Of a stretch of 64,000 bases of DNA, positions 20,946 through 36,700 are shown piece by piece. Each line of letters opens with the position of its first letter. Within the stretch, counting starts at the first letter, position 1. Source of the stretch: Sacculina carcini (lineage: Eukaryota; Arthropoda; Thecostraca; Sacculinidae); contig OU696582.1 of the NCBI GenBank assembly GCA_916048095.2, positions 118,501 to 182,500 of the forward strand. Direction: 5' to 3'. Both the position numbers and the translations under genes were made by a program. A model generated the notes under the pieces. That model was not told where the DNA came from. It did no database searches and saw only the letters and a list, made by a program, of their open reading frames with translations.

Positions 20946-22904
20946 GCAAGCAGTCTGACGCGGCGGCGGCGGCTGTCTCGCGGGAGGAATGGACGGCGCG
21001 TTTGGAGAAGGTGCACGTGAGTCGCACCGACATGAACCGCTTGATCATGAACTACCTGGTCACAGGTGGGTGCAAACATTGTCGCAACAGGGTCACGTGA
21101 TTTCTGGCGGCACTGTTCTGTTGCGCTTGTTGGTATTGGCGTTGTTTTAAGTGTGCACGACAAAGTCAAGCCTGGCCAAGATTCAAACCACAGCAAATAT
21201 CTGACAAACGACTATTGGGCGTCACTGTGTGTGTGTGTGTGTGTCTGTACCTGTGTGTATGTGTGACGGTATTTTGGTGGTGGTTGTTGTTTTGACACCA
21301 GAGGGATTCAAGGAGGCAGCCGAGAAATTCTCCGAGGAGGCGTGTATTGGCGCCGACGTTGATCTCTCCTCGCTCGACGATCGCATCAAGTGATCCAACA
21401 CACACATACACACACGGATATGATCGCATCAAGTGATCCAACACACACACACACAGATATGATCGCATCAAGTGATCCAACACACACGGATATGATGATG
21501 TACAAATGAGACATCAGTTAAAGAGAGGAAGAAGGAATGAAAGAGTGAAAGTTGCATAAAGAAGCATTTGCTAAACCCTGAAAGTAGCATCCGAAACGTG
21601 TGAAACACACAACTTACAGCTGTCTGTGTGTGTGTGTGCTATTAGAATTCGGGACGCCATTCGTGAGGGTCGGATCACGGAAGCGACGGATCTTGTCAAC
21701 AGATTGCACCCGGAACTGCTGGACAATGATCGACATTTGTTCTTTCATCTGCAGGTCGATCATCACTCATCTCATCTGCCTGTTTCCGCTCATAATTCCT
21801 CATCTTCTTCCCTCTGTCCAACATGCATTTTGAGTGTGATTGTTACTTTTTAATGTCTTCTTGTTTTTACAGCAACAACATTTGATCGAGCTGATCAGAG
21901 AAGGGAAGATTGAGGAAGCGCTGTGGTAAGAACACCATATTTATCATTTCATCGCGCGCTTTCCATGTCTGTTTTATGTATCCCTTTTTGTCTTTGAATT
22001 CCCACACAAATATTATTAGGCAGCGTAACTGCAAGCAGCATTGCTAAATCTCAATAGACCCGCCTCAGCATCAATAACGACCTTGATTTCACTATTTCAA
22101 CGCTTCTCTACGAGTTATAACATAGTGTACGTGCTATGCTGGAGGCGATATGTGAGTGTATGAAGTGATGTACAATATGAGGCAGGAATCATGCCGACTT
22201 GCTGTTTCAAAATATAATTCAACAATGGACTTTGTGATTCATCCGCACATACAAAGTGGAGATTGAGTGATATTGGAAACATCCTAAGATATATATATGT
22301 GTGTGTGTGTGTGTGTGTCAGTTTTGCACAGCAGAACTTATCAGAGAGAGGAGAGGAGAGTGCCGACGTGTTGGCAGAGCTCGAGAGAACGTTGTCCTTG
22401 TTGGCCTTCGATGACCCCTACAACAGTCCATTTGGAGAACTACTCAACACTTCTCACAGGCAAATGGTACTGCACTCTGACACACAGGATAGTTACTAGA
22501 TATCAGGATAGGGGCGGGTGATGAGTGATGAGTCTTGCACAGCTAGAGTTTTGTTTGAGAAGAAAGATGTCGTGTGAGACGAACACCGAGCACGCACACT
22601 GACAGATCGTGTACGATATCAATATTAACGTTTTACATTAGAGCAAGTGCGATCAGACATAGTCCTGTGTCTGAGCTGTTCGATGCGACAACACTGATGA
22701 AAGCCGACACTTGTGTGTGTGTGATGTTGACAGGTTGCCAGCGAGTTGAACGCGGCCATTGTGAGACAGACGAGCTGTTCTGACCCGACCACAAGACTAG
22801 AGACGCTGCTCAAACTGCTGCTGTGGGCGCAGAACCAGTTGGAAGAGAAGAAGGTGCGGTTCCCGCGCATGAGTGACGTCACCAGTGGGATCCTGGACGA
22901 GTGA
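20942..22904 (+). CDS. GID8: GID8 / TWA1 homologue, CTLH E3 ubiquitin-ligase subunit (6 exons)
   Basis: Exons 20942-21065, 21302-21389, 21646-21754, 21873-21925, 22322-22466 and 22734-22904; all phases agree and give 229 aa (human GID8 is 228). The protein follows GID8 end to end: an N-terminal LisH region with VSRTDMNRLIMNYLVT (about residues 27-42), EGFKEAAEKF, a CTLH segment IRDAIREGRITEA..LHPELL, QQHLIELIREGKIEEAL, then the CRA domain GEESADVLAELERTLSLLAF and LLKLLLWAQNQLEEKKV. GID8 links the CTLH (GID) E3 ubiquitin-ligase complex; the human protein is mainly nuclear and is also linked to beta-catenin. Start: the first in-frame ATG, with a G at -3. Acceptors of exons 3, 5 and 6 carry (TG)n tracts. 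Exon 2's donor is triplicated. Confidence 0.96.
21379..21489 (+). repeat. Triplicated exon-2 end plus 5' splice site of GID8
   Basis: GATCGCATCAA|GTGATCC followed by ACACAC.. and GATAT is present three times. Candidate exon ends are 21389, 21432 and 21471. Only the first keeps the frame into exon 3; the others would add 43 or 82 nt. The units are separated by (CA)n. Confidence 0.9.
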
Positions 22905-23140
22905 GAACCTGGCATATGGTTCCTTGTGGTCTAGTGCTACTGAACAACACGGTGTGTCAAGAATGTGTTCATGATGTGTGTCGGCGAGCGATTGAAACAC
23001 ACCACTCTTCTCAACGTTGATGAAACTCTCTCACGCCCTGATTGTTTATGTGTTTTTATATTTGAACATTTGTGCGACTGCGCTCAAGTACCCCAGTTCT
23101 CAACGCTTGTGTGCAGTCATGATGTCTGATGAAGTGTCAA

Positions 23141-23146
23141 AATAAA
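23141..23146 (+). terminator. Poly(A) signal of GID8
   Basis: AATAAA 237 bp after the GID8 stop codon, the first such hexamer in the 3' flank, followed by TGTTGTGTCGTG (GU-rich) about 20 bp downstream. Confidence 0.6.
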
Positions 23147-33706: not shown

Positions 33707-33755
<49 letters not shown>

Positions 33756-36700
33756 AATACACCAATACACAATACCAATACACAAGCACAAACACACACA
33801 CACACGGATACATAGACAAATATATATCATCCCGGAATTCAAATAAAAACACTTTTCAAATAACAACTATTTCTAGACAAATTATCATTCGCTATAGAAA
33901 CTGAACTCAAGTGTAAATATATTGAGTCTCATGAAATATCACCGTGCATAAACAATTTATAATTATAGCATTTTGCGCAATACCACGCGTGTGTGTATGT
34001 GTGTGTGCAGGCAGGTGTATGTTCACCGAGCAGGTCGAGCTGATTGAACCAGTCGACCACGCGCACATTATCTGGCACGTGCATGCCAGATAATCTCTTT
34101 CTGCTGAAACGCATCAACACCTGACAGCATAATCAAGAAGTTCACTTAATCAAATTTAGGTGTTAAGAAAGTGTAAACTATATATTCAGTCTATTTCAAT
34201 ATAATAGTAAAAATAAATTTTTCAAAAATATATTTATGTTAATTTCATAAAGGAGTGGCAAAGTATGGCTACATTAAAAAATGAATAATGAATAATAATG
34301 ATAATAATTGAATAATAATTGAATAATGAATAATGAATGAATTTCGGAATATTTTTGAGAAAGCCGTATTAAAGTTATGACACTTGAGAATATATTTGTA
34401 AACTGTTATAATTACATGTGTCGATATTTTAATAGTTCTTGATTTTAGCCAGCATTTTGCACGATAATTTAATATTCTTGATTGAGCTGAGCTCGGCCTA
34501 CTTTCTGCTTGAGTCTGGCAAAAACTCGCAGGAAGATCTGGAGATAGTCTTCAGGAACGGAATTCGCCTCATAACCAGTAATTCCCAGACTGAACAAAAC
34601 GACTCCATCTTCTCCACACTCATCCATAAAAGACTTCTCATTCTGAAAAAAATGTATATTCAACAAATTATATAAAACCAATATTAATTCTACACCGCTG
34701 GATAATTTATTTGTATATTTCTGGCTTTCATCAAATTTAGACCGACATTTAGCATAAGAAAATGTTTACACGTTACATAAATTTGAGGTTAAATATATTT
34801 ATGAATAATATTTGTAAAAGGTCCCTAATTAAGTTAATATAATGATTATTAAGACAATTTGATTAACATTATCTGAGCTTTTGTTCTCCCCAAAATAAGT
34901 TTTGTTACAATTTTTAAGATTCTTGATGTTGTGTTTGTGGCGCACTTGAGACAAAGGCTGCGCAGGCCGACACTGTGGACAGCCGATCATTTGTACGTTG
35001 GGAGGTAGCAGTAGAGGTTGAGATGTGAAGAAATTCGACATCACTAGCACAACATCCACGTTATGAACCAGTCTAGCAACATCTGGCAGTCCTGGGTAAT
35101 ATTTCTGTATTTCCAGCCACACACACAAATTGCGCCTAAATTTTCAATATCCTTTCAATTGATGATATAATTTTATTTTCTCCCAAGTATTCTCTTTTTG
35201 AATATATAATGAGTGATTTTATTTGAATTTACATTTTCCTTAATATCCCGTTTCCAATCAATACTACTTAATAATCTGTAATATTTCACTCAGACACAAA
35301 AAAACGTTCAATTTTGTGTTTCCACGTTTCCTTTACTAAATATTTCACTGAATATTTTATCCTTAAATAATTTAATAAACTAAAATAAAACTTAAATGAA
35401 CTTAAATAAGCAAGCTAATCAATTTAATAAATTTAATCATGTAAATAAGCATACATAATTAAAAATTGATAGTTAAGAAAACAATTGTATGATAATTTGA
35501 AGAATCAAGACGACTCGATCTCCTGCCTGGATGTAGTAGTTGGCGATCGAGGTTTGTTTGGCGAGCAGAGCTTTGTGGACGAGTAGAGTGGCCGTGTTGT
35601 AGAGTCTCTGCCAGAACGTCATCTCAGGACCGAGATCTGACAGAAACGTGGTAACCACAGACGGCAGGTTGAGGGTCGACGTGAGCAAACTCTGAAAATC
35701 CAGATAATGCACGAATAGTCGCCGACAACGAAATTTCGAAATCAAACAGTCAAGAAATGAACATAATTTGAGAACAATTGAAATACTGGAAGACTGAAGA
35801 AACTGTCATGATCAGAACATCTTTCTGTCTCCAAGTGGCCTTGTCAACATTTGTGCTAGTTTGTTGGTTGTTTGAGAGCAAGAATTATGACCCCAGTAGA
35901 ACAACTCATGATCGGTTTATCATTTTCATTGGTGAGGCCGCTCTGTGTCAGATATCACCTCTCCTCCGCTGAAACTGAATCCCCAGAATCCGACGGTGGG
36001 CAGTTTGAGAGCAGCGGCCATCGCAAGACCACACTCATTGCCGATCAGATCCACCAGTGCCACACTGAAGTTCCTGCTGCTCAGCGAGTCCATCAGAGAG
36101 GTGTCGCCGAGCAGATTCGAGCAGTGCGCATGAGTGAGCACGTAGACGTCGGGGGGAACACGGTCGAGACGTCGTCTACGCTGCCACAACAGCTGGGTGG
36201 GGATCTGGAAGATGCCCTGCTGGTTGAAGTAGGGAGAGCTGGACAGAGAAGATGTGTTCACTCGACGATCAACAACCTCCACGGACGATTTCACAGGAAT
36301 AGTGGATTTGCTATTCAGCCATCTGCCGAATGAAAGCATGTATGAGATGAATATCATATGTGAGAACAGCTACACTATGGTGAACTACTGTGTTGATGTA
36401 TCAATTAATGTAATTGATTAATTAATACGTTAAAATAACGATGAAGAATTTAAAATATTTAAATTCAATTTCAAATTATAATAATCCATGTGAATTCACA
36501 AAAATACAATCGTTTTTCAGTTTGCTTCGAGTTTTTGGCAGCAAAAAATCTGGAAAACTTGCCTTTATTTCGATATATAGCGACACTTGTATATATACAA
36601 GCCAGATATACACACATGAATCATGAATTATAGGCAATAAACTATGAAATATGAACAATACACACCACACACACATACATGTGGGCTACACCGACATGTT

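Follow-up and report, generated by a model that had tools for sequence, protein, structure and literature searches.

The window is a 64,000-nt stretch of the Sacculina carcini genome (contig OU696582.1, positions 118,501 to 182,500) that harbors six genes with 24 annotated introns in their coding sequences (CDS). Some of these introns carry an AC repeat near the donor and a GT repeat near the acceptor, here termed AC-first/GT-last introns, and the origin of this layout is the subject of this report. Five of the six genes match Pfam families (CTLH/LisH in GID8, DUF2368 in PLGRKT, UDPGT in UGT, a UDP-glucuronosyltransferase, MH1/MH2 in SMAD, and kinase in the MNK-like gene), and the sixth, which may be a GT92 glycosyltransferase, has no Pfam family match. 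The names GID8, PLGRKT, and MNK are more specific than these families and are putative designations based on a reading of the sequences. Splicing leaves open frames in GID8, PLGRKT, SMAD, MNK, and the family-less gene, whose intron 1 is one of two possible choices, and in UGT only downstream of intron 3. All 24 introns have GT/GC...AG ends, as demanded by the search, and all are in frame except UGT intron 3 (35136-35526, reverse strand); the sites chosen for the latter do not rejoin the frame, which may reflect a missed small exon, an unusual splice site, or a frame break.

According to the initial annotation, GID8 intron 2, PLGRKT intron 2, and UGT intron 6 each begin with an AC run and end with a GT repeat close to the AG, and the two arms could pair and loop out the intron. 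The splice sites of the three introns (Table 1) were all confirmed by reading the sequence. The AC run starts approximately 8, 13, and 19 nt into the intron in GID8, PLGRKT, and UGT, respectively. The GT run stops 7 nt short of the intron end in GID8 and 11 nt short of it in UGT, close to the AG in both. PLGRKT fits this description more loosely, with a nearest short GT run that ends ~30 nt from the intron end and a long GT run that begins 58 nt from it. The AC-first/GT-last layout is real at the named introns and recurrent in the genome.

Table 1. Introns, repeat arms, tandem repeats, and single-frame dynein loci. Positions are those of the window, except in the last row (contig:position in the assembly).
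Feature	Position	Strand	Basis
GID8 intron 2, AC-first/GT-last	21390..21645	+	frame-consistent splice
GID8 intron 2, 5' AC arm, first copy	21398..21415	+	sequence reading
GID8 intron 2, 3' GT arm, followed by CTATTAG	21621..21638	+	sequence reading
PLGRKT (DUF2368) intron 2, AC-first/GT-last	24455..24923	-	spliced protein matches PF10166
PLGRKT intron 2, 5' AC arm	24902..24910	-	sequence reading
PLGRKT intron 2, long GT arm (CA on + strand)	24513..24575	-	
UGT intron 6, AC-first/GT-last, ends with the highest predicted pairing	33700..34026	-	
UGT intron 6, 5' AC arm (GT on + strand)	33989..34007	-	
UGT intron 6, 3' GT arm, imperfect (AC on + strand)	33711..33805	-	
GID8 intron 5, weak AC-first/GT-last; fourth case, absent from the initial annotation	22467..22733	+	
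GID8 intron 1, GT-last without AC-first	21066..21301	+	
GID8 intron 4, GT tract immediately 5' of CAG; AC run only >60 nt from donor	21926..22321	+	
PLGRKT intron 3, GT tract immediately 5' of CAG, without AC-first	24073..24353	-	
MNK-like kinase intron 2, GT tract immediately 5' of TAG, without AC-first	53816..53955	+	
Intron 2 of the gene without Pfam family, GT-first/GT-last	27329..28306	-	
~39-bp tandem repeat, 2.7 copies, holds GID8 AC arm	21379..21487	+	
39-bp tandem repeat, 1.9 copies, acceptor-proximal part of PLGRKT intron 2	24456..24531	-	
Single-frame DHC_N2 loci	C23:2822191, C25:7199950, C25:590607, C31:1330910, C8:9765751, C6:516292, C1:2636606		

Preferences of each intron end and the acceptor tract

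Since the window counts include the three founding introns, an independent set is the test that counts, and introns outside the window were sampled from its own assembly (264 Mb, 43 contigs). The anchored set derives from exon-by-exon matches of six families (myosin, SNF transporter, TCP1, kinesin, dynein DHC_N2, and UCH). Contiguous profile segments flank 195 anchored introns, of which 75 were examined (68 and then 7, the latter being the shortest of those remaining); 67 were resolved with in-frame GT/GC...AG ends, GT/GC and AG being demanded by the search, and 8 failed the splice or frame criteria. The ab initio set comprises 45 introns from the 200 kb adjoining the window. The first fit of the predictor yielded 1332 introns and recovered 14 of the 24 window introns exactly; after refitting, it yielded 241 introns and recovered 19 of the 24, and 72 introns passed filters and 45 a stricter strand filter. 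Its splice-site scores ignore the tract, and its non-coding model was trained partly on window and anchored introns. Together, the two sets form a new set of 112 introns, none of which was used in the original observation.

By default, an arm is called when an AC or GT run of at least 6 nt lies within 60 nt of the intron end. Two anchored introns, the TCP intron at C15 8171864 and the kinesin intron at C15 756651, have doubtful donors inside GT repeats; both are kept in the full set of 67 but are outside the strict anchored subset. The tests were fixed before the anchored DNA was examined but after the window and the 200-kb block had been. Three analyses postdate them: the contrast between AC-first and GT-first starts, the composition of the tract, and the division by length class.

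The 24 window introns include four AC-first/GT-last and no GT-first/AC-last cases, with nine GT-last introns in all (Fisher p = 0.047 for AC-first by GT-last). The new set repeats this orientation, with 22 AC-first/GT-last introns and none in the reverse order among the 112, so that the layout did prove commoner than its mirror image, as the initial annotation had supposed. The margins, however, are themselves uneven: 68 introns are GT-last and only 5 AC-last, next to 27 AC-first and 26 GT-first. Because each end has its own bias, the orientation counts can follow from the margins, and orientation does not isolate pairing.

The bias of each end was measured in the 87 new introns of at least 300 nt, with randomly placed windows from their interiors as the reference. 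GT runs occur in the last 60 nt of 53 introns vs 19.7 expected (2.7-fold, p 0.0005), and AC runs are depleted approximately 4-fold at the same end (3 vs 12.2 expected, p 0.0005). At the donor end, AC runs are in mild excess (19 vs 12.2 expected, 1.6-fold, p 0.004), and GT runs show no enrichment in these introns (17 vs 19.7 expected). These end-specific preferences can account for the orientation bias.

The acceptor preference is also evident in base composition. In metazoans, the tract before the acceptor normally has much U and C and little G. Across the 67 anchored introns, positions -20 to -5 contain 42% T, 31% G, 15% C, and 13% A, compared to 34% T, 19% G, 19% C, and 28% A in the intron interior; the same positions upstream of 1279 interior YAG sites have an interior-like composition. 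The other sets agree (G 29% and C 8% in the window, G 35% and C 10% in the ab initio set). The longest pyrimidine run in the 40 nt 5' of the anchored YAG has a median of 4 nt, and in the same interval a pyrimidine run of at least 7 nt is found in 4/67 introns vs a GT run of at least 7 nt in 32/67. With 15% C and 31% G, the 67 anchored introns lack the pyrimidine-rich tract expected of ordinary metazoan U2-type introns. The UG-rich acceptor tract is a firmer result than the pairing of the arms.

It is conceivable, if doubtful, that the layout stems from neutral microsatellite growth, in which CA/TG repeats would spread genome-wide, splice-like seeds (GTGTG, GTCAGTGTG, and copies of donors) would start arrays at intron ends, the AC strand would be purged at acceptors as tract-spoiling, and the arms would be functionless. 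Seeds and arrays are at hand, as the forward strand of the window holds 119 AC and 153 GT runs of at least three units, donor-proximal CTGACACA-type arrays occur in several new introns, and in two named introns one arm lies within a tandem duplication, which reproduces the donor in GID8 and the 3' end in PLGRKT. In the GID8 repeat, three identical 18-mers, GATCGCATCAA/GTGATCC, at 21379, 21422, and 21461 are copies of the exon end and donor. However, neutral growth alone does not give the 2.7-fold GT excess at the acceptor.

Of note, the three copies in 21379-21487 provide three identical potential donors, and past the first donor the frame immediately encounters TGA (AAG TGA).

The donor-side AC excess could alternatively mean that AC repeats act alone, as sites for an hnRNP L-type CA-repeat splicing regulator, independently of the 3' arm. 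The enrichment in the first 60 nt is what this proposal would predict, but it is small, has a p value of 0.07 in the anchored introns alone, and stems in part from introns that lie close to one another in the block, between 97 and 104 kb; the proposal is considered improbable.

Possible coupling and predicted pairing of the arms

The initial annotation likened the named introns to structure-bridged introns of fish, in which base pairing between the CA and UG arms is reported to loop the intron out and join its ends, lowering the need for U2AF2. Its orientation prediction agrees with the 22 vs 0 introns of the new set. Predicted folding also provides some support. When introns of 100-1000 nt from the window and new sets together were each folded alone, 11/22 AC-first/GT-last introns vs 18/81 others had at least 15 expected pairs joining the first 60 nt to the last 80. 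The median minimum free energy (MFE) per nt of AC-first/GT-last introns, -0.272, is 22 to 32% below the medians of the other classes (-0.206 to -0.222; p 0.020), for lengths that are not exactly matched. Nevertheless, a lower MFE and paired ends are largely built into the way the class is defined and are a near-restatement of it.

The named introns differ in their predicted capacity to pair. UGT intron 6 has 47.7 expected end-to-end pairs and would pair strongly if naked, but GID8 intron 2 (8.4) and PLGRKT intron 2 (7.6) pair their ends weakly, so that predicted end pairing is strong in only one of the three; in our opinion, the weakness of the latter two arises because inner AC and GT repeats compete.

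If the arms were selected to pair, the letters at one end should matter to the other. In the pooled new set, GT-last is found in 17/22 introns that are AC-first only, 16/21 that are GT-first only, and 30/64 with neither start; the first two do not differ (Fisher p 0.61), and GT-first is itself associated with GT-last (Fisher p 0.013). Since GT-last is equally frequent after AC and GT starts, repeat-bearing starts appear to accompany repeat-bearing ends, whatever their letters. Among introns shorter than 400 nt, GT-last follows 10/12 AC-first and 9/11 GT-first starts; among those longer than 1000 nt, it follows 4/6 and 6/6, respectively. Moreover, 46 of the 68 GT-last introns in the new set have no AC-first arm with which to pair.

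Duplex energies of each intron's own ends were also compared to those of swapped ends. The difference is not significant in the anchored (p 0.58, 65 introns) or the pooled new introns (p 0.20, 102 introns), and it leans towards pairing in the ab initio set (p 0.07, 37 introns). The permutation signal of the window (p 0.037 with 24 introns, 0.045 with 22) was not replicated in the anchored introns.

The association of AC-first with GT-last likewise depends on the threshold and the intron set. Its Fisher p value was 0.098 in the first 60 anchored introns and 0.42 in their strict subset of 46; in all 67, it is 0.030, falling away to 0.21 in the strict subset of 52 and to 0.53 for runs of at least 8 nt. 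After the new-set tests, pairing was set aside as the default cause of the layout. Structure bridging in the manner of zebrafish is held unlikely, and self-pairing of the arms as a selected mode is undemonstrated, with room for pairing in a subset of introns. Of the self-pairing claim in the initial annotation, the layout, the orientation, and the predicted capacity to pair stand, but the arms were not found to be matched to each other. With ~20 introns per class and several per gene, these comparisons could overlook a real coupling of moderate strength.

The layout is probably best explained by separate preferences of the two ends together with the UG-rich acceptor tract. The acceptor-side GT enrichment and AC depletion, the UG-rich tract, and the equal frequency of GT-last after GT-first and AC-first starts in the pooled new set are observed directly. 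On this basis, the 3' splice site would be preceded by a UG-rich tract, often (UG)n, in place of a polypyrimidine tract. UG repeats would be favoured or tolerated at the acceptor and AC repeats excluded there, and AC repeats would be tolerated or mildly favoured after the donor, independently of the acceptor end. AC-first/GT-last introns would then be mostly the product of two separate end biases in a genome very rich in CA/TG repeats. Arm pairing may occur in single introns but need not maintain the layout.

Several points weigh against separate end preferences as the explanation. In the new set, GT-last is found in 22/27 AC-first introns vs 46/85 others (Fisher p 0.0088), and in the 400-1000 nt class it is found in 8/9 AC-first introns vs 18/39 others (p 0.022), compared to 6/9 for GT-first (p 0.32), as structure bridging would predict. 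With 22 vs 21 introns, the contrast between AC-first and GT-first starts has little statistical power, and introns that share a gene are not independent. The donor-side AC excess varies by set (11 vs 7.9 expected, p 0.07, in anchored introns; 8 vs 4.3, p 0.016, in ab initio introns; 2 vs 1.5, p 0.41, in the window). At the acceptor, 34/67 anchored introns have neither a pyrimidine run nor a GT run of at least 7 nt, and the 29 anchored introns without a 6-nt GT run show just a mild G enrichment (G 21%, C 21%), so that the UG bias comes from the introns with repeats. Finally, every splice site is predicted from sequence, and some ab initio introns may be false, in which case any association would be inflated.

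A combination of the two mechanisms is also conceivable. The lineage might have largely swapped its polypyrimidine tract for UG repeats, approximately one-fifth of its introns having also gained a donor-side CA clamp, such that the UG repeat would serve both as a protein-bound tract and as half of a structural clasp. This scenario is speculative and appears unlikely.

Other features of the window and the assembly

Tandem repeats are not confined to the named introns. MNK intron 3 starts with ~1 kb of a ACTAACACTCTTCA-like minisatellite (54111-55180), and a 159-bp tandem repeat of 5.8 copies with 97% matches occupies 14842-15771. In the window and the adjoining block, GTCAGTGATGTCGTGTCAGTG-type arrays adjoin coding-scoring stretches at ~148-154, 173-176, 218, and 241 kb. 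Six-frame Pfam scans (E <= 0.05) of 2000-7000, 7000-12000, 13300-18300, 36900-41400, 48100-52900, and 59300-64000 gave no credible further gene; three Pfam families in 13300-18300 were rejected, as they fall on the 159-bp repeat.

Traces of mobile elements were noted by eye. Non-LTR reverse transcriptase-like frames or pieces lie at 18374-20578 (reverse strand), 469-2011, 12033-13275, and 30515-31167. The translated stretches at 2459-2737, 42005-42190, and 55837-56068 resemble one another, and the first overlaps a tRNA-Val match (2574-2646); perhaps they constitute a tRNA-derived SINE. At the Rfam gathering score, only two tRNAs are found in the window.

The assembly also harbors genes in single open frames. 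Open frames spanning 4025-4695 aa contain seven near-complete DHC_N2 domains (Table 1) and are apparently intronless giant dynein genes; other dynein loci are split into exons. The kinesin motor has 26 near-full-length matches that each keep to a single frame; 23 of them have no stops and 8 are clustered on contig C11 (main region C11:1881371-2062534). Further single-frame genes include SNF transporters (C10), a myosin (C7), and several UCH genes. The single-frame kinesin, SNF, myosin, and UCH genes may have formed as retrogenes.

Splicing factors and comparison with known systems

Candidate readers of the acceptor tract are encoded in the assembly. The U2AF large-subunit model matches two single-frame loci on contig C26 with 421 and 412 bits, above the cut-off, and the RRM2 in a 300-nt piece of one of them gives a gap-free alignment of 88 residues with U2AF65 chains in PDB (E 5e-37). 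The TDP-43 N-terminal domain has matches at three loci. With U2AF65 and TDP-43-type loci found, the standard tract reader and candidates for UG binding are both present. By the content of the assembly, the UG tract could do the work of the conventional tract. U2AF65, UG-binding proteins such as TDP-43, or both could bind it, and either may be the factor that acts on it.

The two U2AF large-subunit genes are arranged head to head, ~2 kb apart (C26:1032223-1036658), as are two of the three TDP-43 N-terminal domains (C26:5886003-5886991).

An animal with commonly UG-rich acceptors, U2AF65, and several TDP-43-type loci would provide a natural test of how free the 3' tract is in sequence and of whether UG-binding proteins can join constitutive splicing. 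It also illustrates how weakly orientation by itself argues for AC-GU bridging, as the own bias of each end can yield the orientation without pairing. A literature search over titles and abstract openings, partial in coverage and hence a weak negative, returned no description of UG-rich acceptors as a general habit.

The closest known layout is that of the zebrafish (AC)m-(GU)n introns (Lin et al. 2016 Genome Res), which are described in the available passages of PMC9024468, PMC9198270, and PMC12962679 and cited in PMC7404189 and PMC5766209. Both have AC near the donor and GU near the acceptor, in the same orientation, and a lower predicted folding energy; the two arms, a feature of the (AC)m-(GU)n class, occur within one intron in 4/24 window and 22/112 new introns. 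In contrast to the zebrafish introns as these passages present them, the UG arm here is far commoner than the AC arm, and coupling of the arms is undemonstrated. The folding energy of (AC)m-(GU)n introns is given in the relevant passage of PMC9024468 as 50-100% lower than that of conventional introns, compared to 22 to 32% here (median MFE/nt, lengths not exactly matched).

Human intronic pUG repeats resemble the introns studied here in a different respect. The passage in PMC12962679 describes fish introns as pairing UG with CA and human pUG introns as having no CA partners, and a UG repeat with no complementary CA arm is likewise the state of most GT-last introns here. However, that passage, as far as it extends, does not describe a link of the human repeats to the acceptor.

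The human CFTR gene offers a single-exon counterpart. The tract of its exon 9 has the form (TG)m(T)n. According to PMC12171016, this UG-tract acceptor is bound by TDP-43, and it shares with the acceptors described here a UG-rich sequence right upstream of the 3' splice site. The difference lies in extent and consequence: in CFTR, as depicted there, the tract belongs to one human exon, at which TDP-43 promotes missplicing, whereas in Sacculina many ordinary coding exons of conserved genes have UG-rich acceptors.

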